Shown here one piece after another: positions 3,549-41,629 of a stretch of 41,633 nucleotides of DNA. The stretch spans positions 1-41,633 of the IMG/VR virus record IMGVR_UViG_3300048591_000794. One strand, 5' to 3'. Position 1 is the first letter of the stretch; the number at the start of each line of letters is the position of its first letter. A model generated the notes under the pieces. The model was not told where the DNA came from and searched no databases. It worked only from the letters and a program-made list of their open reading frames with translations. This stretch comes from a virus. Position numbers and translations under genes: made by a program.

Positions 3549-3576
3549 AGTCTATCCGGGTTCAGAGCACGGTGAA
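3549..3576 (-). promoter_or_regulatory. putative promoter for the 81-aa gene, portal and protease
   Basis: Reading leftward, TTCACC (3576-3571) and TAGACT (3554-3549) are separated by 16 bp, 20 bases before the ATG at 3529. The -35 lies inside the end of terL. The -10 region GGATAGACTAG closely matches the one at 18433-18438. Confidence 0.45.
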
Positions 3577-5208
3577 CGGGCTTTCCTCGATGTCGCCGGC
3601 GTCCTCGTCGAGCATCAGGCGGCCCAGGGCCATCAGCAGGGCGACGATCATGTCGATTTTCCTGGCGTCCTGCCGCTCCGCCTTGACCGGGCGGATGTCC
3701 TCGTTTTCGTTGACCCTAACCTGGACGTTGCCCGCCTGCCAGTTGGCGACGGGGTGGCCGCCGTGGCGGATGCCGCCCTCGCTGAGGAGCCTCTCGAGAT
3801 ACTTGCATGGCCCGGTGAAGTTGACGATCGTCTGGGTGAACGGGGTGATGTTGATGCCCTCTTTCATGAGGGTGGTGATCGTGTGGACGGCGTTGTGGGG
3901 GTCGCAGGCGATGCTCCGGAACGGGGTAACCTCGTGGACGGCCATGATGTGGGCGAGGATGCAGTCGTAGTCGATGATCGACCCCTCGGTGGCGTAGATG
4001 GCCCCCTCGGCGTGCCACTGGCTGTAGGGGACGAAGTCGCGTGTTTCCCGCTCCCGCATCCCCTCCTCCGGGATCCAGACGTCCCAAAGGACGTCGATGG
4101 TGCCGTCCTCGAGCCGGAACACCCGTGTCAGGGCCGCGGTGTCGCGGGTGCTCGCGAGGTCGAGCCCGGCCCAGCACTCGTGGCCTGCGTGGTCCTCGGG
4201 CTGGCCCCCGCAGGCGTCCCACTGCTCGCGCTTGATCCAGACGGTCTCGCTCTGCGTCCAGATGTTCAACCTGTACCGCTTGAAGGTGTTGGTCTTGGAC
4301 GGGGTGTTCTCGGCCTCGATGAAGTCCTGGCGGAAGTCCTCGAGGGCGATGGTGTGCCCAAGGCTCGGGTTCGCCTTGAACCACGTGGCTTCGGCCTTCC
4401 AGTCGTCGTCGGTCCCGGCGGCGCGGATGTACGGGAAGAAGGCGAGGTCGTGGTACTGGCCGTCGGCGACCCGTTCGGCGTACTGGTGCTGTTCCCAGCA
4501 GATGGAGTTGCGGTCCCATCCGGCGGTGGTGATCGCGACCAGGAGGGGCTGGCGCCTGGCGGAGCCGGCGTACCGGAGCACGTCCCACATGAGGCGGCTC
4601 TTGTGGGCGTGCAGCTCGTCGATCACGGTCGCGCTGGCGTCGAGGCCCTCCGAGGTAAAGGTCTCTCTGGAGAGGGCGACGAGGCTGCTGCCGGTGGCCT
4701 CGAAGGTGATGGTCTTGGTGCTCTTGTAGGGCCTGGTGACGGCGGCCAGGTCCGGCTGTGCGGCGCAGAAGGCCGCGGCTTCCTCCCAGACGATGCCCGC
4801 TTGTTTCCGGTCGGTGGCGGCAAGGAAGACGCGGGCCCGCTGCTCGCCGTCGCCGATCAGCATGAAGTTGGCGATCGCGGCGGCGAGGGTGGACTTGCCG
4901 TTTTTCTTCGGGATCTCGATGTACGCGACGCGGAACCGCCGGGTGCCGTTCGGTCGTTTCCATCCGAAGAGGGGGCCGAGGACGTCCTCCCGCTGCCAGT
5001 CGAGGGGGTCGAATGGTTGGCCGGCGAGCTCGCCCTTGGTGTGGCGGAGGAACTGCCGGCAGAAGAGGATCGGGCGGTCGGCGGCGGCCCGGTCGAAGTA
5101 GTAGCCCTGGCAGGCCGCCCTCTCGTCGTTCTCGCTCTTGATCTGGTCGAGCCATCCCTCGTCGCGCGCGCGGCGGCGTGCGGCCTGGGGCGTGAGTTTG
5201 TCTGCCAT
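3562..5208 (-). CDS. terL: terminase large subunit
   Basis: The 548-aa DNA-packaging motor has both expected halves. The ATPase has the Walker A variant PKKNGKST (residues 100-107) and Walker B with catalytic Glu in TVIDELH (194-200). The RNase H-like nuclease has acidic residues D350 in GLDLAS, D436 in ACDPHN and D519 in KIDM. It matches the Terminase_1 (PF03354) layout seen in HK97-type phages and is full length. It starts 4 bases after terS ends and precedes the portal operon, as usual. The nuclease active site looks intact. Confidence 0.97.
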   Translation of the reverse strand: MADKLTPQAARRRARDEGWLDQIKSENDERAACQGYYFDRAAADRPILFCRQFLRHTKGELAGQPFDPLDWQREDVLGPLFGWKRPNGTRRFRVAYIEIPKKNGKSTLAAAIANFMLIGDGEQRARVFLAATDRKQAGIVWEEAAAFCAAQPDLAAVTRPYKSTKTITFEATGSSLVALSRETFTSEGLDASATVIDELHAHKSRLMWDVLRYAGSARRQPLLVAITTAGWDRNSICWEQHQYAERVADGQYHDLAFFPYIRAAGTDDDWKAEATWFKANPSLGHTIALEDFRQDFIEAENTPSKTNTFKRYRLNIWTQSETVWIKREQWDACGGQPEDHAGHECWAGLDLASTRDTAALTRVFRLEDGTIDVLWDVWIPEEGMRERETRDFVPYSQWHAEGAIYATEGSIIDYDCILAHIMAVHEVTPFRSIACDPHNAVHTITTLMKEGINITPFTQTIVNFTGPCKYLERLLSEGGIRHGGHPVANWQAGNVQVRVNENEDIRPVKAERQDARKIDMIVALLMALGRLMLDEDAGDIEESPFTVL

Positions 5209-5212
5209 GGGG

Positions 5213-5728
5213 TCAGCCTGCCGAGGTCGCCGGTGCCGGCTTGCCGTTGATCCGCAGGAAGCCCTCGAGCGGGCTCTGCGGGCTCAGTGTAGGGGCGACG
5301 GCGATCCTGGTCCTGGCGCTCGGGGTGAGGCCGTACTCGAGCTCGATGCGGAGGAGCTGGTCGGCCAGCTTGGCGGCGATGTTGACCTGGGGCCATTGCT
5401 GGACGTACTTCGGCTGGCCCTTCTCGTCCTTAATGGTGTAGACCTCGCCGTTGGTCTGGAGGAACTCCTGGACCCGGCGCCACCTGGCGTGGATGGAGCA
5501 GTAGCGGGCGATGATGGCGGCGTCGGCCTTGGTGGCCAGGCCCATGCGGTCCAGCAGCCTGAAGGTGCGGTGCCAGCACTCGACGGCAATCTCGTCGGTG
5601 AGCCAGGTCGGGATCTGCGGCTTCCCCTCGGGCGGCTGGGGCTCCGCGGGGTTCATGGCCCGCTTCCGAGGGTTGCCCCGCAGCTCTCGCAGGGTGCTCG
5701 GGGCCGGCTTCGGACCTCGTGGTGCCAT
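5213..5728 (-). CDS. terS: terminase small subunit (P27 family)
   Basis: The 171-aa DNA-recognition component of the packaging terminase begins with the typical P27-family MAPRGPKP and LRGNPRKR, followed by Pro-rich LTDEIAVECWHR and a helical central domain (DAAIIARYCSIHARWRRVQEFL). The C-terminal half carries the LRIELEYGLTPSARTRIAV segment shared by the family (PF05119). The ATG at 5728 has no ribosome binding site, but a TATAGT box ends 6 bases before it, so the mRNA is probably leaderless. The pac/cos site should be nearby but cannot be located by eye. Confidence 0.93.
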   Translation of the reverse strand: MAPRGPKPAPSTLRELRGNPRKRAMNPAEPQPPEGKPQIPTWLTDEIAVECWHRTFRLLDRMGLATKADAAIIARYCSIHARWRRVQEFLQTNGEVYTIKDEKGQPKYVQQWPQVNIAAKLADQLLRIELEYGLTPSARTRIAVAPTLSPQSPLEGFLRINGKPAPATSAG

Positions 5729-7724: not shown

Positions 7725-8155
7725 CGGCCCCGGCACGGCAGTCCGCCCTTGGTGTGGTGTGGTGTCGGCGCCCCGTGGGCGTCGGTGCTGACGATGCGCC
7801 TGCAGGACCCGCACCGGCACAGGCCGGTGCGGAGCATGCGCTCTCTCGTCGCCAGGCCCTCATCGGTCAGGTACCATCGGTCGAGGAGCGTGGCGGGGAT
7901 CCTCGCCATCTTCCGGTCCATGTCGTCGGTGAGTTCCTTGGCGGCTGTCCCGAACTTCTCGAGGTCAGTCAGGGCCATGTAGATGTTGTAGATGTCCGGG
8001 GCGCCGTCCATGATCTCATGGATGCCCTGGATGTCGGTCGGCCCGTGCTCGGCAAGATGGTGCACCAGGATGCGGTGTGCGGGGCTCTGGAGGATGGCGT
8101 TGGCCTTGGCGAGGGTTTGGTCGATGTCGTGGGCGAGCTGATCGGTCGGTGTCAT
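7721..8155 (-). CDS. winged-helix-like protein with C-terminal Cys cluster
   Basis: The 144-aa protein has a first half (AHRILVHHLAEHGPTDIQGIHEIM, then IYMALTDLEKFGTA, then RWYLTDEGL) that reads like a winged-helix DNA-binding domain of the MarR/ArsR general type. The C-terminus has CRCGSCRRIV (about residues 113-122), a small metal-binding knuckle. A regulatory role is inferred. It is one of two genes preceded by the duplicated 89-bp leader (the other is 8242-9018), so the two are probably co-regulated. ATG at 8155 with AAAGGAA upstream. Confidence 0.65.
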   Translation of the reverse strand: MTPTDQLAHDIDQTLAKANAILQSPAHRILVHHLAEHGPTDIQGIHEIMDGAPDIYNIYMALTDLEKFGTAAKELTDDMDRKMARIPATLLDRWYLTDEGLATRERMLRTGLCRCGSCRRIVSTDAHGAPTPHHTKGGLPCRGR

Positions 8156-8241
8156 GTTCGGTTCCTTTGTGCTCCGGCCGGCCTATCCCGGCCCGGGCCC
8201 TCGGGTCGACCGCGCGGGCTCGGCCCTCGGGCGCGGGTCGG
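8153..8241. repeat. 89-bp duplicated leader, copy 1
   Basis: Matches 9016-9104 at 88 of 89 positions. It spans the whole intergenic region from the stop of the 258-aa gene to the ATG of the 144-aa gene. It contains a 13-bp motif copy (8205-8217), the self-complementary tracts GGCCGGCC and GGCCCGGGCC, and the ribosome-binding leader GAGCACAAAGGAACCGAACATG shortened (coding strand, ending at the ATG). Confidence 0.92.
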
Positions 8242-9018
8242 TTACCGCCGGCGGTGGATCGAGCAGGTCCCGTCGCAGTAGGTGGTCTGGCCCATCTGGT
8301 CGTGGGGGCCGGCGGGGTGGCCGTCGCACTGGCTGGCGAGCCATGCCCGCGCCGCTTCTCGACCGTCGCGGGCGGCGTCGCCTCCGGCGGCGGCTTCGAC
8401 GATCCTTTCGAGCAGGCCGCCGCTGTCGGGCCCGTTGTAGATCTGGTCGTGCGTCATCCCTCGCCCGAGGAGGTAGTCGGCGGCGGCGTTCACGACGGCC
8501 CTGGCGGCTGGCGTTTGGGCCGCGGGGAGCACGGTCTTGGGCGCGCACACCCCGCCGGTCGCCCCCTCCTCGTACTCCTCGCGCTCCGCCATGGGCATGG
8601 CAATCCACGCCGACCAGTCGCCGGTGAATCCCTGATCGCGGCGAGCGTACTCGTAGGCGGCTCGGTCGTCGCTTCCGCCGCGGGTGATGGTCTCGGCCGC
8701 GTCGAGCAGCGCGTCTCGCATGCGCGGACACTCGGCGATGTCGGCGGAGCAGGCCGCATTCTCAACCGTGTGGGCCGAGTTGGGCATGCCGCAGTGTGGG
8801 CAGTCCTCCTGGTGCTCGTCGGCGGCGGCGGATGCGGCCAACTGCCTCGCGTTCCGCTGCTCCTCCAGCTCGGCGTCGGGGTCGAACGCCAGTCGCACAC
8901 GCCGCGCGGCGCACTCCTCGCAGTACACGCCGGTCCCCCGCTCGTGCGTGCAGTGGGTCTCGTGCTCGCAGCTGGCCGAGTCGCACTGGGTTGTCATGTC
9001 ATGCTTCACGGTTTTCAT
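8242..9018 (-). CDS. hypothetical 258-aa zinc-finger protein
   Basis: Not assigned to a family. The N-terminal third holds a dense set of Cys/His residues (CDSASCEHETHCTHERG, then YCEECAARR, then CPHCGMPNSAH), consistent with two or more zinc sites. Another CDGTCSIH cluster is at the C-terminus. The middle is helical and Ala/Glu-rich. The gene is flanked on both sides by the 89-bp duplicated leader, whose copy 2 supplies its ribosome binding site (AAAGGAA). Confidence 0.65.
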   Translation of the reverse strand: MKTVKHDMTTQCDSASCEHETHCTHERGTGVYCEECAARRVRLAFDPDAELEEQRNARQLAASAAADEHQEDCPHCGMPNSAHTVENAACSADIAECPRMRDALLDAAETITRGGSDDRAAYEYARRDQGFTGDWSAWIAMPMAEREEYEEGATGGVCAPKTVLPAAQTPAARAVVNAAADYLLGRGMTHDQIYNGPDSGGLLERIVEAAAGGDAARDGREAARAWLASQCDGHPAGPHDQMGQTTYCDGTCSIHRRR

Positions 9019-9104
9019 GTTCGGTTCCTTTGTGCTCCGGCCGGCCTATCCCGGCCCGGGCCCTCGGGTCGACCGCGCGGGGTCGGCCCTCGGGCGCGGG
9101 TCGG
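9016..9104. repeat. 89-bp duplicated leader, copy 2
   Basis: Same element as 8153-8241 with a single C/G difference. It runs from the ATG of the 258-aa gene to one base before the stop of the 107-aa gene. It includes the 13-bp motif at 9068-9080 and AAAGGAA before the start. Confidence 0.92.
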
Positions 9105-9429: not shown

Positions 9430-9489
9430 CGTCTGGGTTCCTTTGTGCTCGGTGGTCCGGTTGGTCGCGGTGTTCCTCATCTGTCATAC

Positions 9490-9573: not shown

Positions 9574-10863
9574 CTACTCGAGGCGGACCCCGGGCTGGCG
9601 CTCGCCGTCGGCGTTGCACCGCTCGGCCTCGACCGCCGTCAGGGCCTGGTAGCGGCGGACGATCACGTCGCAGTAGCCCGGGTCGATCTCGAACCCCCAG
9701 CACCGGCGGCTCATCTGGTCGGCGGCGATCAGGGTGCTCCCGCTGCCCAGGAAGGGGTCGAGAACGATGTCGCCCGGTCTGGTGCTCCTGGCCATGAGCT
9801 CGGCGAGCATGCCGACGGGCTTCATCGTGGGGTGGTCCCGCGAGGCCTGGGGCCTGTCGAAGAGCAGGACGCTGTCGGTGGTCGGCGGCGGCGCGAGGTG
9901 GGTCTGGCCCCGTTCCTCGGGCGTCCAGCCGTAGAACACGGTCTCGTGCTGGTAGTGGTAGTCGGTGCGCCCGAGCACCAGGGCTTGTTTCTTCCAGACG
10001 AGGGTTTGCTGCCAGACGCCCTGGTCGCGCAGGGCCCGGGCGAAGGTGAGCATGGTGGTGCCGCTGGGCGCGAAGACGTACCAGACCGCCCCGGGGCGGG
10101 TGTAGGTCTTGGCCAGGTCGAACGCCGTGCGGAGGAGGGTGTCGAGGCCCTCGGGGCTGTCCCCAGCGATCGTCAGGGCGTCCTCGGTGCCGCCCTTGTA
10201 GTTGATCCCGTACGGGGGGTCGGTGATCACGGCGGCCGGTCGCGCCTGGTCGGCGGGGTCGGCGTGCACCAGGCGTATCCATGGGTGGCAGTCGTCGGCG
10301 CACGACGCGCACAGCAGGCGGTGCCGCCCGAGCCTCCAGAAATCCCCCGCCCTGGTGGTTGGTTTCTTCGGGCGCTTCGGCGTTTCCCCCTCGGTGGTGT
10401 CCGCCGGCGCCGGCGGGGCGGGCGGGCCGCGGAGGGCCTCGGCCTCCGCCGCGGTGAACCCGAGGGCCTCGAGGCCGGTGCTCTCGGCGGCGAGCTGCTC
10501 GAGCTGGTGGGCGAGGACCTGGATGTCCCAGGAGCTCAGCTCGGCGGTGCGGTTGCTGGCGATGGCGTAGGCCGCGGCGTCGACGTTGGCCTCGTCGACG
10601 ATGACGGCGGCGATGTACCTCCACCCCAGGTTCCGCGCGGCGTCGAGGCGGGCGTTCCCGGCCCTGACCACCATGCCGGCCTTCTGCACGATGATCGGCA
10701 CCCGCTGGCCGTACCGCTTCAGGGTGGCCTCGACGGCCTCGAGGCTCCGCTCGTCGTGGCTCCTGGCGTTCTCGGGGTCCTCGTTCAGGAGGTCGGTTTC
10801 GACGGCGAACTGCCGCAGGGGCGCGGCGATGTGGCTCAGGTCTTTCGTGGGTGTGGTGGGCAT
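9574..10863 (-). CDS. ParB-N domain fused to DNA methyltransferase (DPPY)
   Basis: The 429-aa protein has an N-terminal ParB/Srx-like domain (residues ~10-110, with the signature AGNARLDAA at 68-76 and IASNRTAELSSW). After a Pro-rich linker comes a beta-class amino-methyltransferase. Catalytic motif IV is TDPPYG (214-219), the SAM-binding motif LDPFLGSGST lies near 368-377, and GFEIDPGY near 390-397 supplies the acidic residue contacting SAM. DPPY points to N6-adenine methylation. Such fusions are common in phages, where they may protect DNA from host restriction. All key residues look intact. A paralogue with lost motifs lies 3 bp upstream. Confidence 0.92.
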   Translation of the reverse strand: MPTTPTKDLSHIAAPLRQFAVETDLLNEDPENARSHDERSLEAVEATLKRYGQRVPIIVQKAGMVVRAGNARLDAARNLGWRYIAAVIVDEANVDAAAYAIASNRTAELSSWDIQVLAHQLEQLAAESTGLEALGFTAAEAEALRGPPAPPAPADTTEGETPKRPKKPTTRAGDFWRLGRHRLLCASCADDCHPWIRLVHADPADQARPAAVITDPPYGINYKGGTEDALTIAGDSPEGLDTLLRTAFDLAKTYTRPGAVWYVFAPSGTTMLTFARALRDQGVWQQTLVWKKQALVLGRTDYHYQHETVFYGWTPEERGQTHLAPPPTTDSVLLFDRPQASRDHPTMKPVGMLAELMARSTRPGDIVLDPFLGSGSTLIAADQMSRRCWGFEIDPGYCDVIVRRYQALTAVEAERCNADGERQPGVRLE

Positions 10864-10866
10864 GGC

Positions 10867-12114
10867 TCAGCCGGGGTGGATGGCGGTGGTCTGGCCGGCG
10901 GTGGTGGCCTGCGCTGTGGACCTGGTGAGGGCCTGCCATCTGGCGACGATGGCCTCGGCCTCGCCGGGGCTCGGGGTGATGCCCAGGGCCCTGGCCCCGA
11001 GCTGTTCCGCGGCGATGAAGACCCCGCCGGCCCCCGCGAATGGGTCGAGGACCAAGTCCCCGCGCGCGGCGCTGTTGCGGATGGCCTTGGCGTAAAACTC
11101 GACGGGCGTGGCCCCGTCGGGCTCGCCGATCCGTGGGGAGAGCTCCCAGGTGCTCGTCTGCTTTCGGTCCGGAGGCTCCCGGCGGTCGGCGCCGGGCTTC
11201 CAGCCGTAGAGGATCGGCCGGTGGCGGTAGTGGTGGTCCTCGTGGCCTAGGTCGAGCTTCTGGCTGATCAGGGCGAGGGTCTGCCGCCAGATGTCGCCGA
11301 GCTCGCTGGCGGTGTCGATGAAGGCCGGGCCTGGTGGCGCGGTGAGGTACCAGCAGGCGCCCGCGGCGGAGTGCTCCGCGGCCAGGGCGATCGCCAGGGC
11401 GAGCACGGTGGCGGCCGGCTCGGTGTCGCCGTCGGCGTTGACCTGCAGCCGGTTCTGTTGGGGCGGGTCGCTGACCAGGAGCCTGGCCAGGTCCTCGCCC
11501 ATAAGGGCCTGGTAGGTGCCGCGGTGCGATGGGCTCCCGATCACGAGCCGGTGGTCGCCCATGGTGACGACGGAGCCGGTGCGGAGGGTGGGTTTCTCGG
11601 GCTGGGGCTGCGGGCCGGGGGTCTCTCTCTCCTCCCGGGCGGCTGTCGACCGCGCGGCCTTCGGGCGTGGGGCCGCCGGCCGGGATGCGGCGATGATCTG
11701 GTCCATCTCCGCGGCGGTGTACCCGGGGACTGAGGCCTGCCCGGCGTCGCGGAGGGTGGTCATGGTGGCGCCGAGCCTGGACTCGTCCCACCCGCTCAGC
11801 TCGGCGACGCGGTTGTCGGCGATGGCGAACCCGCGGGCGGTCTGCTCGTCGTCGTCGAGGACGGCGGCGGCGACGTGGGTCCACCCCAGGCGTCTGGCGG
11901 CCTCGAGCCTGGCGTTGCCGGCGGAGACGGTCATCGTGTCCCGCCTCACGACGAGGGTCTCCCGCTGGCCGAACCGCTTGAGGCTGGCCATGGCCTGCTC
12001 GATGCTGTGCTCGTCGTGGCGCCTGGCGTTGTTCGGGTCGGGCTTGATCGTGCCGATCTCGACCGCGAGGGCGCGGAGGGGTTCGGCGATGTGGCTGAGG
12101 TCGGGGGCGGTCAT
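10867..12114 (-). CDS. degenerate paralogue of the ParB-methyltransferase (probable pseudoenzyme)
   Basis: The 415-aa protein parallels the 9574-10863 product along its length: DLSHIAEPLRALAVEIGTI, AGNARLEAARRLGW, an Ala/Pro linker, then a methyltransferase fold. The ParB-like part is well kept, but catalytic motif IV reads SDPPQQ (215-220) instead of DPPY. The SAM-contacting acidic position in the GFEIDP equivalent reads GITPSP (378-383), replacing Glu by Thr; LDPFAGAGG (from 356) survives. The frame is fully open and tightly spaced, so the gene is maintained. It may have become a DNA-binding or regulatory partner of the active copy. A 13-bp motif copy lies in the linker at 11645. Confidence 0.85.
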   Translation of the reverse strand: MTAPDLSHIAEPLRALAVEIGTIKPDPNNARRHDEHSIEQAMASLKRFGQRETLVVRRDTMTVSAGNARLEAARRLGWTHVAAAVLDDDEQTARGFAIADNRVAELSGWDESRLGATMTTLRDAGQASVPGYTAAEMDQIIAASRPAAPRPKAARSTAAREERETPGPQPQPEKPTLRTGSVVTMGDHRLVIGSPSHRGTYQALMGEDLARLLVSDPPQQNRLQVNADGDTEPAATVLALAIALAAEHSAAGACWYLTAPPGPAFIDTASELGDIWRQTLALISQKLDLGHEDHHYRHRPILYGWKPGADRREPPDRKQTSTWELSPRIGEPDGATPVEFYAKAIRNSAARGDLVLDPFAGAGGVFIAAEQLGARALGITPSPGEAEAIVARWQALTRSTAQATTAGQTTAIHPG

Positions 12115-12687: not shown

Positions 12688-12773
12688 GGGGGGGGGCCTG
12701 GAAACTCGCGGATTTGCGCGCACTGCCGACGTGGTGGTCAGCAGTCGATCACTCCGCAGTTTCAGACCCCCCC
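12688..12773. repeat. long inverted repeat with G/C homopolymer arms
   Basis: Left arm 12688-12711 (nine G then CCTGGAAACTCGCGG) and right arm 12754-12773 (CCGCAGTTTCAGA then seven C) are complementary apart from a few mismatches, around a loop of about 42 bases. It lies between the 91-aa gene and the 324-aa gene and overlaps the latter's last codons and stop. It could be a terminator or structured RNA, though no T-tract follows, or a protein-binding cruciform. The C-rich edge resembles the spacers of the iteron array at 22535. Confidence 0.7.
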
Positions 12774-13736
12774 TCCCCCCGCCGGCCCCGCGCCGCTGGC
12801 CCCGTCGGCCTGCGTGCCGTCCGTGGCCCCGCCGTCGTCGCTGGTGTCGGTCTGGGCCTGCCCGGCGGCCTCGGGGTCGCCAGCGGTGTCGGGCTCTCCT
12901 GCGGGCTCCTGGCCCTCCTGCCTGGCGAAGCGCAGGGATGTCCCGGCCGGGACGAACACGACCGTCTGGTCGGGGAACGCGGACTGGAGGATGTCCTTGG
13001 CGATCGCCCGGTGCGCGGCTGTCATCGGTTCCTCCTGCTCGACGAGGACCATGTCCCCGGGCCGCAGGTGGGTGATGGGCATGGGCATCAGGTCGGAGAT
13101 GTTCCCGAGGATCTCCGCGGCGAGCATGGTGGTGTCGGTGGCGTGGGCGTCCCTGATGTTCTGCAGGGTGTCCCCGTCGATGAGGCCCCTGCTCACGGCC
13201 TCGGCGTATGCCATGGCGGTGTCGCGGGCCTTGTGCTCGCCGATGCTCTCGCAGAGTCGGCATCGCCCGTTGCGGCGCACTTCGCTGGCCAGGACGAGGC
13301 TGTTGTGGTAGTTGACGCCGCAGCCGGGGCAGGTCGTGAACTCGGTCCGCAGGATCTCGGCTTCAACCGCGGGGTCTGCCTGGTATTCCTCCCGGCGCCT
13401 CGTCTTGCGTGCCTCGATCCGCGCTGCGGTGGCCCGTACCGCGGCCTCGGGGTCGCTGGTGGCGTCCAGGTCGCCCATGGTTCCCTCTCGGATGGCTTCG
13501 GCCTTGACGCCGATGCGGCCCGCCTCTGCCCGCGCCAGCTTGGACGCCGGGACGCCGAGCTCGTCGCAGAGGGTGCACTGGCCGGCCGTGCGCACGCTCT
13601 CGCCCTCTGCGCTGCCCTCGATGAACCGGGCCCCGCAGCCCGGGCATACGCGTGTCCCGGGGGCCCGCTTGGCGCCGGGGTGCCCGACGGGCGCGTGCGT
13701 GATGACGGGCCCGGCCTGTTCGTTCTGCTCGCTCAT
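12762..13736 (-). CDS. 324-aa protein with two duplicated zinc ribbons
   Basis: Not in a family I can name. Two homologous zinc-ribbon modules are visible: VCPGCGARFIEGS...GQCTLCDELG (about residues 30-60) and TCPGCGVNYHNSL...GRCRLCESIG (about 134-165). Each has CPxCG then CxxC, separated by an Arg/Glu-rich helix. The C-terminal ~60 residues are low-complexity Gly/Ala/Asp/Gln. Nucleic-acid binding is plausible. Its stop lies inside the inverted repeat at 12688-12773. Confidence 0.7.
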   Translation of the reverse strand: MSEQNEQAGPVITHAPVGHPGAKRAPGTRVCPGCGARFIEGSAEGESVRTAGQCTLCDELGVPASKLARAEAGRIGVKAEAIREGTMGDLDATSDPEAAVRATAARIEARKTRRREEYQADPAVEAEILRTEFTTCPGCGVNYHNSLVLASEVRRNGRCRLCESIGEHKARDTAMAYAEAVSRGLIDGDTLQNIRDAHATDTTMLAAEILGNISDLMPMPITHLRPGDMVLVEQEEPMTAAHRAIAKDILQSAFPDQTVVFVPAGTSLRFARQEGQEPAGEPDTAGDPEAAGQAQTDTSDDGGATDGTQADGASGAGPAGGGGV

Positions 13737-20554: not shown

Positions 20555-21859
20555 TCAGAAGAGTCGGTTGGTTTCGGCCCCGACCCGCCTCGCGGCGAGG
20601 CTGATGTACTCGGGTTTCAGCTCGATGCCGACGAATGCCCTGTCCCACTTGCAGGCGACGGCCCCGGTGGTGCCCGATCCCGTGAAGGGGTCGAGGACGG
20701 TGTCGCCCGGCGCGGAGCCCGCGAGGATGCATGGCGTTATCAACGCGGGCGGGTAGGTGGCGAAGTGGGCCTCGGGGTAGGGGGCGGTGGCGACGGTCCA
20801 GACGGATCGTCGGTTGCGGGTCTCCCTTGGACCGATGTTCGCCAGTCCCGCTTTGGTGCGCATCCTCTCGTCGCCCCTTGAGTGGGCGTCGGCATATTTG
20901 TTCGAGTCCAACAGCCCAGAACCCTCGGGGAAACGTGCTGGCTCGGCGATCGCCTCGGCGTCGTAGTAGTAATCGAATCCCCGCCATCGCGCTACGGTCG
21001 CGTCGGGGTCGTCGTCGGTAGGTGCCGGCAGGCGCTCGGACAGATCTGGGGTGCGCGACCACTCCGCGGTGTCTCTCGCCCGCCAGACTTTCGCGTTGCC
21101 GGACTTGCTCAGCAGGAACATGTACTCGTGCGCCTTCGTGCATCGGTCGGTTACGCTCTCGGGCATGGGGTTGGGCTTGTGCCAGATGATGTCCTGCCGC
21201 AGCCACCAGCCGTCGGCCTGGAGGGCGAGCGCGACCCGCCACGGGATGCCGACCAGATCCTTCGCCTTGAGCCACGGCGTGTTCTTGAGCGAGCCGGTCT
21301 GCGTCCCCTTCGGGTGCGCGAGGATCTGCCTGGCGCTCAGGCATGTTTCCTCACTCGACGCGCCTTCAAGAGTGCCGGGGGTGAAGTCGCCGCGGCTCTG
21401 TGCGCCCCACGACCCCGCGTAGCTATCCCCCAGGTTCAGCCACAGCGTCCCGTCGTCCGCCAGCACCCGCCGCACCTCGCGGAACACCTCGACCATCGAC
21501 GCGATGTACGCATCGGGCGTGGGCTCCAGGCCGAGCTGCGCGTCGATCCGGCGGGCTCCGCACTTGCCGCAGGTGCCGCGGTATGGCACGACGATCGAGC
21601 GTTCGTAGTTGTTCGATCCAGGGTTCGGGCGTCCGTCGTTTTTGAGGGTGGATGTCGCGCTTGCAGCCGTTCCCTTCACATGATCGCACCCATCATCCCC
21701 ACCCTCCCACTTCGCCGTGCCGTAATCCCGCAGCCCCCAGTACGGCGGGCTCGTCACGCAGCACCGGGCCAGCCCGTCTGGGAGCTGACGCAGGGTGGCC
21801 AGCGCGTCGCCCTGGTAGATCGTGGCCATACCGTCCGCGCTCTGCCACCTGTGGTTCAT
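20555..21859 (-). CDS. site-specific DNA methyltransferase (SPPY type)
   Basis: The 434-aa beta-class amino-methyltransferase has catalytic motif TSPPYWGLRDYG (36-47), the SAM site DTVLDPFTGSGTTGAVA (387-403) and FVGIELKPEY. S/TPPY motifs usually mean N4-cytosine, sometimes N6-adenine, methylation. An insertion of about 50 residues after motif IV carries DGCDHVKG and TCGKCGARR, which could bind zinc. All motifs look intact. No cognate restriction gene is present, so it is an orphan methylase, probably protecting the phage genome or affecting gene expression. Confidence 0.93.
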   Translation of the reverse strand: MNHRWQSADGMATIYQGDALATLRQLPDGLARCCVTSPPYWGLRDYGTAKWEGGDDGCDHVKGTAASATSTLKNDGRPNPGSNNYERSIVVPYRGTCGKCGARRIDAQLGLEPTPDAYIASMVEVFREVRRVLADDGTLWLNLGDSYAGSWGAQSRGDFTPGTLEGASSEETCLSARQILAHPKGTQTGSLKNTPWLKAKDLVGIPWRVALALQADGWWLRQDIIWHKPNPMPESVTDRCTKAHEYMFLLSKSGNAKVWRARDTAEWSRTPDLSERLPAPTDDDPDATVARWRGFDYYYDAEAIAEPARFPEGSGLLDSNKYADAHSRGDERMRTKAGLANIGPRETRNRRSVWTVATAPYPEAHFATYPPALITPCILAGSAPGDTVLDPFTGSGTTGAVACKWDRAFVGIELKPEYISLAARRVGAETNRLF

Positions 21860-22035: not shown

Positions 22036-22946
22036 CCCGCGCGCTCCCGCACCTGGTTGGGGTCGATGAGGCATGTGAGGCTCCTTCTGCGCTTGCGGCC
22101 CTCGGGGCCGGGGTCGGCGAGGACGGCCTCGAGGGTCATCCACCCGGGCGCTGCCCCGGTCCGCTTCAGGGTGCGATCCCGCCAGTGGGCCATGGCCCGG
22201 GTGGCGTCGGCGGCCCTGTCCCGGAGGAAGGCGGTGAGCCTGGCGTCGTCGGCGGCCTGCCGGCGCCAGGTGCGGGCCCAGGCATCTGGTGGCTCCACCT
22301 GCTGCCGGATGCACTCGGCGATGTAGCCGGCCGGTCTGGTCTTGGCGGAGGCGAGGGCCTCGTAGTGGTCGAGCCGCATCAGGTCGGTTCTGTCCGCCAG
22401 GGGCCCGGGGTTGTTGACCCCGAGCTGGGTCAGGCGGTCCATGATCTGCTCTGGGGTTCCCTCTGGGTGGTTCTTCTCGTCGTCTTCGCGCGCGACGACG
22501 ACGTGTTTCTGGGATGGATCAAGGACGGATCCCCTGACATAGCTATGGCACCCCCCCCCTGACATAGCTATGTCACCCCCCCCTGACAACTTGTCACCCC
22601 CCACCCCTGACAACTTGTCACCCCCCCCCTGACAAGATGTCACCCCCACCCCTGACAACTTGTCTGGGGTGTTTTGCCTAGCTTCGGTGTCCATGATGGT
22701 CAGACGGTAGCGGTTTGATCGGCCCTCCCGCTCGGTGATCTCGAGCATCCCGGCGGCCTCGAGGTCGCCCAGGAGGCGGGTGGTCTGGCGCTCGGACATG
22801 CGGATCTTCCTGGCCAGGCTCTGGACCGAGGGCCAGATGTCGCCCCCCTCGTCGTTGGCGTAGTCGGCGAGGGCGAGGAGGAGCAGCAGGGCGCTCCCCT
22901 TGGCGTCCGCCCGGTCCCAGACGGTGCTCATCACGCGGATGCTCAT
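22032..22946 (-). CDS. replication initiator (O-like, winged-helix) with internal origin
   Basis: The 304-aa protein opens with VMSTVWDRADAKGSALLLLL then IWPSVQSLARKIRMSERQTTRLLGDLEAAGML, the HTH_36-type winged helix of phage and plasmid replication initiators. The central part (residues ~94-138) is low-complexity DKLSGVG repeats because it is encoded by the iteron array 22535-22665, exactly the lambda gene O arrangement. The C-terminal part (PAGYIAECIRQQVEPPDAWA) resembles the helicase-loading tails of such proteins. It probably binds the iterons and recruits the host replisome. No phage helicase loader or polymerase was recognised. Confidence 0.85.
   Translation of the reverse strand: MSIRVMSTVWDRADAKGSALLLLLALADYANDEGGDIWPSVQSLARKIRMSERQTTRLLGDLEAAGMLEITEREGRSNRYRLTIMDTEARQNTPDKLSGVGVTSCQGGGDKLSGVGGDKLSGGGDIAMSGGGCHSYVRGSVLDPSQKHVVVAREDDEKNHPEGTPEQIMDRLTQLGVNNPGPLADRTDLMRLDHYEALASAKTRPAGYIAECIRQQVEPPDAWARTWRRQAADDARLTAFLRDRAADATRAMAHWRDRTLKRTGAAPGWMTLEAVLADPGPEGRKRRRSLTCLIDPNQVRERAG
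22535..22665. other. replication origin: six palindromic iterons separated by C-tracts
   Basis: Six sites at 22535-22550, 22560-22575, 22584-22596, 22608-22620, 22630-22642 and 22653-22665, spaced 22-25 bp. The first two are TGACATAGCTATGTCA (16-bp palindrome, one base off in the first). The other four are TGACAACTTGTCA (13-bp palindrome) or close variants. Spacers are runs of C with an occasional A. The array lies within the initiator gene. Confidence 0.88.
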
Positions 22947-41202: not shown

Positions 41203-41348
41203 GGTGGTCTCCTGGGTTGGCCGGGGTGAACGCGGTCCTGGGCGCGCGGCCGCCGGCGTGTGTCGCTCGGTCTGCCTCGCGCCGGAGACTCTGCTCTGGT
41301 GCTGTGGCTGGTCCTCGCTGCGGGCGTTTGGCTCGGGCTCTGCGTGCC

Positions 41349-41361
41349 GTCGACCGCGCGG
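41349..41361. repeat. 13-bp motif copy at the capsid promoter
   Basis: Exact GTCGACCGCGCGG located 10 bases downstream of the capsid promoter's -10 box, overlapping or just after the expected transcription start (about 41364). Confidence 0.85.
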
Positions 41362-41370
41362 GTGTGCCTG

Positions 41371-41400
41371 ATGGTACATCGGCCCCAATACCGCGGTCAA
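41371..41400 (-). promoter_or_regulatory. putative late promoter of the capsid and tail operon
   Basis: TTGACC (41400-41395) and TACCAT (41376-41371) on the minus strand with an 18-bp spacer. The -35 lies 19 bases from the nearest repeat unit, so the tandem array occupies the upstream-activator position. The leader to ATG 41202 is about 160 bases and no ORF is apparent in it. Confidence 0.6.
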
Positions 41401-41418
41401 GAGGCCTGTCGCGGCCCG

Positions 41419-41629
41419 AGCAAACCCCCCGGCACACCCCCGGGTACAGCTTTCGTCGGAACCGGGTGCTCCGGGGCGCCAGCAGAACGCTGGGAAAGCC
41501 CCCTGGGTCCAGCGCGCAGAATCGGGCCCGAGCAAACCCCCCGGCACACCCCCGGGTACAGCTTTCGTCGAAACCGGGTGCTCCGGGGCGCCAGCAGAAC
41601 GCTGGGAAAGCCCCCTGGGTCCAGCGCGC
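41419..41629. repeat. 112-bp tandem direct repeat array, right part
   Basis: Units start at 41419 and 41531 (112 bp apart); the second runs to about 41629, four bases from the window end. The unit at 41531 is identical to the one at 21, and the unit at 41419 carries the TTTCGTCGGAA variant. With the left part there are five units in all, or four if the terminal ones are the same copy. Confidence 0.95.

Follow-up and report, generated by a model that had tools for sequence, protein, structure and literature searches.

A pseudo-methyltransferase beside its active-looking ParB-methyltransferase paralogue in a viral genome record

The viral record IMGVR_UViG_3300048591_000794 (IMG/VR) encodes two successive ParB-methyltransferase (MTase) fusion proteins, and the presence of a pseudo-methyltransferase beside an active paralogue is confirmed, although this arrangement is known from one instance only. 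The window analyzed here is the whole record of 41,633 nt, which has a GC content of 0.70. It is plausible, if somewhat short of probable, that the pseudoenzyme arose as a ParB-MTase duplicate, was inactivated, and persists as a non-catalytic subunit, most likely as the heterodimeric partner of its active sister.

Gene layout and kinship of the two copies

The minus strand of the window carries terminase, portal, protease, major head, and tape-measure genes, as well as both MTase genes. The pseudoenzyme is the first of the pair in transcription order and is thus referred to as the upstream copy.

10867..12114, minus strand: upstream copy, pseudo-methyltransferase gene (ParB-like domain and degenerate N6/N4 MTase domain); 415 aa, phrog_498 E 9e-68
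10864..10866, minus strand: intergenic gap of the pair; 3 nt, from the stop codon TGA of the pseudoenzyme (10867-10869) to the ATG of the active copy (10863)
9574..10863, minus strand: downstream copy, active-looking ParB-MTase gene; 429 aa, phrog_498 E 4e-102, PF01555 E 2.8e-24
5213..5728, minus strand: terminase small subunit (Terminase_4), which puts the MTase pair in a ParB-terminase locus
3562..5208, minus strand: terminase large subunit (TerL)

The 3-nt gap contains no evident Shine-Dalgarno sequence, and translational coupling of the two cistrons is likely. Downstream of the pair, on the same strand, come small genes of no assigned function and then the terminase genes. This is the layout of the ParB-Tls locus (a ParB-like or MTase gene upstream of a same-strand terminase), in which ParB-fused methylases precede the terminase and have been proposed to direct DNA modification during packaging (PMC6536676). 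The pair shares its domain order, full-length homology, and pre-terminase position with the ParB-fused N6/N4 MTases of phages and prophages (phrog_498; ParB-Tls) (PMC6536676, PMC12704722). However, known phrog_498 ParB-MTases retain DPPY/W/F and the SAM pocket, whereas the upstream copy lacks these.

The two copies share 38% amino acid sequence identity over 429 columns (BLASTP, E 4e-76). Both are ParB-MTase fusions matched by phrog_498, a phage DNA methyltransferase family; PF02195 (ParB_N) is below its curated cut-off in both copies and ParB PHROGs match strongly. In the full-length tree the two are sisters (support 98/84), a grouping that could be artefactual, as both of the branches joined are long. 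Separate trees of the ParB and MTase domains place both copies in one small group and leave its inner branching open. The branch of the pseudoenzyme is longer than that of the active copy in both the MTase tree (2.15 vs. 1.23) and the ParB tree (1.14 vs. 0.88). These trees fit a putative ancient duplication in this lineage, after which one of the MTase domains changed faster.

Tandem ParB-MTase pairs are also found in AcaML1 (gp24/gp25), Roseicitreum pRA03, and locus L043, likewise as two genes in a row in a phage-like context. In these pairs, however, both copies look active, one being of the DPPY type and the other of the SPPY type. In a Phascolarctobacterium metagenome-assembled genome (L040, 4911-7048), a ParB-MTase gene is followed by two successive ParB-only ORFs.

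Active-site residues of the two copies

The alignment comprised 133 full-length homologues, of which 105 were left after those more than 80% identical had been dropped; because most were retrieved via patterns in the ParB part, their choice was independent of motif IV. Columns at least 90% conserved among the 105 homologues were taken as invariant. The main features are as follows.

11812..12063, minus strand: ParB_N-like domain of the pseudoenzyme, aa 18-101; PF02195 E 9e-5 (sub-cut-off), ParB PHROGs to E 2e-30
11458..11472, minus strand: degenerate motif IV SDPPQ (SDPPQQ) of the pseudoenzyme, aa 215-219; Q219, with Y in 93% of the column
11263..11265, minus strand: S284 of the pseudoenzyme, replacing the relay Lys (CcrM K118); alignment and CcrM mapping
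11218..11220, minus strand: R299 of the pseudoenzyme, replacing the relay Glu (CcrM E135; HxE); alignment and CcrM mapping
11104..11121, minus strand: lost HPTMKP of the pseudoenzyme, now PDGATP, aa 332-337; alignment
11026..11046, minus strand: motif I DPFAGAG of the pseudoenzyme, aa 357-363, mostly kept; alignment
10966..10983, minus strand: motif II GITPSP of the pseudoenzyme, aa 378-383; T380 replaces the SAM-binding acid, E in 98% of homologues
10207..10224, minus strand: motif IV TDPPYG of the active copy; alignment
9817..9834, minus strand: HPTMKP of the active copy; alignment
9736..9759, minus strand: motif I DPFLGSGS of the active copy; alignment
9673..9696, minus strand: motif II GFEIDPGY of the active copy; alignment

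The pseudoenzyme retains 16 of 17 invariant residues in the ParB part and 15 of 30 in the MTase part, compared with 15 of 17 and 28 of 30 in the active copy. Among the 105 homologues, the minimum share of MTase invariants kept is 74% and the 5th percentile is 87%. PF01555 (N6_N4_Mtase) spans aa 211-402 of the active copy and only aa 333-386 of the pseudoenzyme. The downstream copy has complete beta-class motifs (IV, HPTMKP, I, and II) and the corresponding fold, and is predicted to be active. In the pseudoenzyme, DPPQ departs from the motif IV pattern (D/N/S)PP(Y/F/W), and PDGATP and T380 depart from HPTxKP and the motif II acid. Also lost are two residues of the VWxK strand, the W (now L282) and the K (S284), as well as H, P, T, and K in HPTMKP, both S and T in motif I, and the motif II/III Y and D that come after the motif II E. 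DPP and the GxG of motif I are kept, as is H298, which is adjacent to R299 and is the counterpart of CcrM H134 at the dimer interface. By profile-alignment mapping, the lost residues include Y34, K118, E135, T191, and K193, with which CcrM holds the target adenine, T191 and K193 being within the HPTMKP-type motif (PMC6787082). A seemingly complementary loss at aa 309-331 was discarded because the alignment is ambiguous there.

The motif sequences of the preliminary description, namely SDPPQQ and GITPSP in the upstream copy and TDPPYG and GFEIDPGY in the downstream copy, were all verified. Its view that the upstream copy has lost catalysis along with the motif IV aromatic and the SAM-binding acid, while keeping its ParB-like domain, is borne out and extended by the additional active-site losses and the ParB residues retained. 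That the pseudoenzyme is catalytically dead is well supported by these substitutions and close to certain, and it would be expected to lack activity in vitro. Chance or sequencing error is an unlikely source of the substitutions, given the many in-frame changes at independent motifs, the intact frame, and the coding composition.

The motif IV aromatic is present in every surveyed homologue with a recognizable motif IV, the pseudoenzyme being the sole exception, so in this family, as far as sampled, DPPQ does not represent another working version of the motif. Conservation of DPPQ among homologues had been suggested as a check; none of those surveyed carries it, and conservation of the pseudoenzyme itself thus cannot be shown. 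Searches for an orthologue of the pseudoenzyme gave no relative with its protein as the query against viral contigs, only active or ParB-only relatives with alignment queries, nothing in one scan of genome contigs, and only active forms in about 790 genomes of two phyla. The flanking sequences examined for TerL relatives contain a single active ParB-MTase or none, and no pseudoenzyme. The hypothetical gene further upstream (12762-13736) also returned no relative as a query. A candidate second degenerate case from a pattern match (L058) was rejected, as it has GPPY and HPAVCP together with a complete motif I.

Predicted structures and candidate roles of the pseudoenzyme

AF2 models of the pseudoenzyme and the active copy have mean pLDDT values of 89.3 and 88.4, respectively. 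The MTase part of the pseudoenzyme model aligns to CcrM with a Z score of 21.2 (rmsd 2.8 over 204 residues; VIA-align), to M.BceJIV with 21.0, and to MboIIA with 20.6, and the best PDB match of the active-copy model is M.BceJIV (23.5, and 22.7 for CcrM). The MTase fold of the pseudoenzyme is thus predicted to be intact, in a model built from an alignment of active relatives, which favors the family fold. The central hairpin, the dimer interface element of this class, is kept in the pseudoenzyme no better than its other parts when compared with the family (ratio 0.76), and special conservation of this hairpin was dropped as a candidate feature.

For the proposed heterodimer, a ParB-MTase gene upstream of the terminase would have been duplicated long ago, and the upstream copy would have lost catalysis, retained its ParB-like domain and MTase fold, and stayed as a non-catalytic subunit. 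This subunit would pair with the active ParB-MTase from the next cistron. The active subunit would bind SAM and methylate, and the pseudo-subunit would supply the second dimer half for gripping DNA as well as a second ParB domain that would place the enzyme on phage DNA in an NTP-dependent manner. NTP binding by the ParB fold is known from several fusions, among them a bacterial methyltransferase fusion that binds ATP (PMC12704722), so the additional ParB domain may assist in this placement. Beta-class MTases dimerize, and the two chains of CcrM divide the work on DNA, with the target strand bound and methylated by one chain and the non-target strand held by the other (PMC6787082).

Both the formation of this heterodimer and its role in placing methylation are what we infer from several lines of evidence. 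The gene order, with the dead copy first and the active copy starting 3 nt later, matches the expectation for a coupled heterodimer. The adenine-holding residues and the motif II acid are lost while DPP, GxG, and the interface-equivalent H298 are kept, which speaks for it as well. The alignment of the pseudoenzyme model to the dimeric beta-class MTases CcrM and MboIIA points in the same direction, and the sister grouping (98/84), the 3-nt spacing, the ParB residues kept (16 of 17), and the GC content at third codon positions (GC3, 0.938) are consistent with it. Conversely, homologues as a rule are active single copies, so the family needs no pseudo-partner, and the searches yielded no second genome with the pseudoenzyme that would attest its maintenance or co-evolution with a partner by comparison. 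The hairpin result and the two long branches behind the sister grouping also count against the heterodimer.

More tentatively, the pair may constitute an asymmetric phage DNA MTase that evolved independently of METTL3-METTL14, with the dead ParB-fused subunit positioning the enzyme on phage DNA. METTL3-METTL14 and MTA1-MTA9 likewise combine an active and a degenerate paralogue; METTL14, in which the motif IV aromatic is lost (EPPL), and MTA9 are degenerate heterodimer partners that support the active sister, the partner role being structural (PMC5023411, PMC9174199). The pseudoenzyme resembles METTL14 in having a motif IV without the aromatic together with a fold predicted to be kept. However, these systems belong to the eukaryotic MT-A70 family, have no ParB domain, and share only the fold with the pseudoenzyme (Z about 14); their complexes are demonstrated, whereas that of the phage pair is proposed. 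CcrM, EcoP15I, and M.MboIIA have the same fold and motif order as the pair, and the identical chains of CcrM act unequally on DNA, but these enzymes are homodimers with two intact active sites, unlike the phage pair. If the heterodimer exists, viruses would have a counterpart of METTL3-METTL14 in a bacterial class whose homodimers use their chains unequally. The ParB part would then also be separated from catalysis by nature, which would help in probing the role of ParB in phage methylases.

The main rival explanation, which we regard as unlikely but worth serious consideration, is that the pseudoenzyme acts alone as a ParB-like DNA-binding or clamp protein (a regulator, nucleoid, or packaging factor), with the MTase part as a structural or dimerization remnant. 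The nearly intact ParB part agrees with this, as does its 50-55% identity to ParB-like ORFs without this MTase domain (L015, L045, L016, and L047), and short phage proteins that are almost wholly ParB fold are known (PMC12704722). However, the whole MTase fold is predicted with high confidence although ParB-only relatives exist, the gene directly precedes that of the active enzyme, and the ParB tree places the pseudoenzyme with the MTase fusions, if weakly (95/76), rather than with stand-alone forms. The heterodimer and the DNA-binding regulator had both been suggested in the preliminary description, and each is compatible with the data. Alternatively, the pseudoenzyme could be a negative regulator that, by dimerizing with its active sister, reduces or delays methylation. 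The dimer logic would be the same as for the heterodimer and coupled expression would fit, but coupling at equal dose does not favor timed inhibition, and this reading is improbable.

A recently inactivated, functionless passenger would explain why the gene is present in one genome only and has a long MTase branch, but this explanation is slightly more improbable still, given the coding properties of the gene. The frame of the pseudoenzyme is open and without a frameshift. Because another minus-strand frame is open over 906 codons, an open frame is weak evidence, and GC3 was used for the test. The GC contents by codon position are 0.70/0.55/0.94 in the eroded MTase domain and 0.67/0.52/0.95 in the active copy. 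In neutral simulations (300 runs per setting), the active copy, an approximate stand-in for the ancestor, was mutated until half of the invariant residues were lost. At equilibrium GC contents of 0.5-0.7, this required about 265-275 substitutions and gave three to five stop codons and a GC3 of 0.77-0.85. The observed GC3 was retained in none of 300 runs at 0.5, 0.6, or 0.7, in one of 300 at 0.8, and in 30% at 0.9. A passenger would thus be allowed only at an equilibrium near 0.9, which is absent from the intergenic DNA of the window (GC content of 0.62-0.74). Codon composition therefore backs the earlier claim that the reading frame is maintained, and the pseudoenzyme, which is very probably under selection, has probably been under coding constraint for most of the time since catalysis was lost. 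The dN/dS ratio between the copies was rejected as uninformative due to saturation and a GC3 near 0.95. Finally, an active enzyme with an unusual motif IV is very improbable, since despite the retained DPP and GxG, the motif IV aromatic found in all homologues with a recognizable motif, HPTMKP, the relay K/E, and the motif II acid were all lost together.

Repeats and a third methylase in the window

A 13-mer, GTCGACCGCGCGG, has 11 exact copies in the window and 17 copies with at most one mismatch, all on the plus strand.

1638, 3510, 7531, 8205, 9068, 11645, 12356, 20322, 23718, 38616, and 41349, plus strand: exact copies of GTCGACCGCGCGG

About 0.01 exact copies are expected from Markov models, and 0.64 copies with one mismatch from shuffled sequences. 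The 13-mer is absent from the 243 other loci searched. Because the codon phases of the copies differ, it appears to be a DNA-level feature, and the copies, being dispersed and one-directional, resemble the stoperators of mycobacteriophages. A 90-nt repeat (99% identical) is located at 8152-8241 and 9015-9104, each time before a minus-strand gene. It contains GTCGACCGCGCGG and a shared AGCACAAAGGAACC, which recurs at 9436 and 28383.

The window ends (5-343 and 41291-41629) both fall within copies of one 112-nt tandem repeat, with 98% identity over 227 nt. Because both ends share this repeat, the record may be a complete, circular, or permuted genome; no end repeat is registered for it. In or beside a replication gene, a cluster of short repeats with inner palindromes (CCTGACATAGCTATGTCA and CCTGACAACTTGTCA) is found at 22527-22664 and is perhaps an origin or operator. 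The replication region also contains a third methylase gene (20555-21859), of the TSPPYW type and without a ParB domain (phrog_67), with a 159-nt stretch that shows 84% identity to Bordetella phage PHB04.
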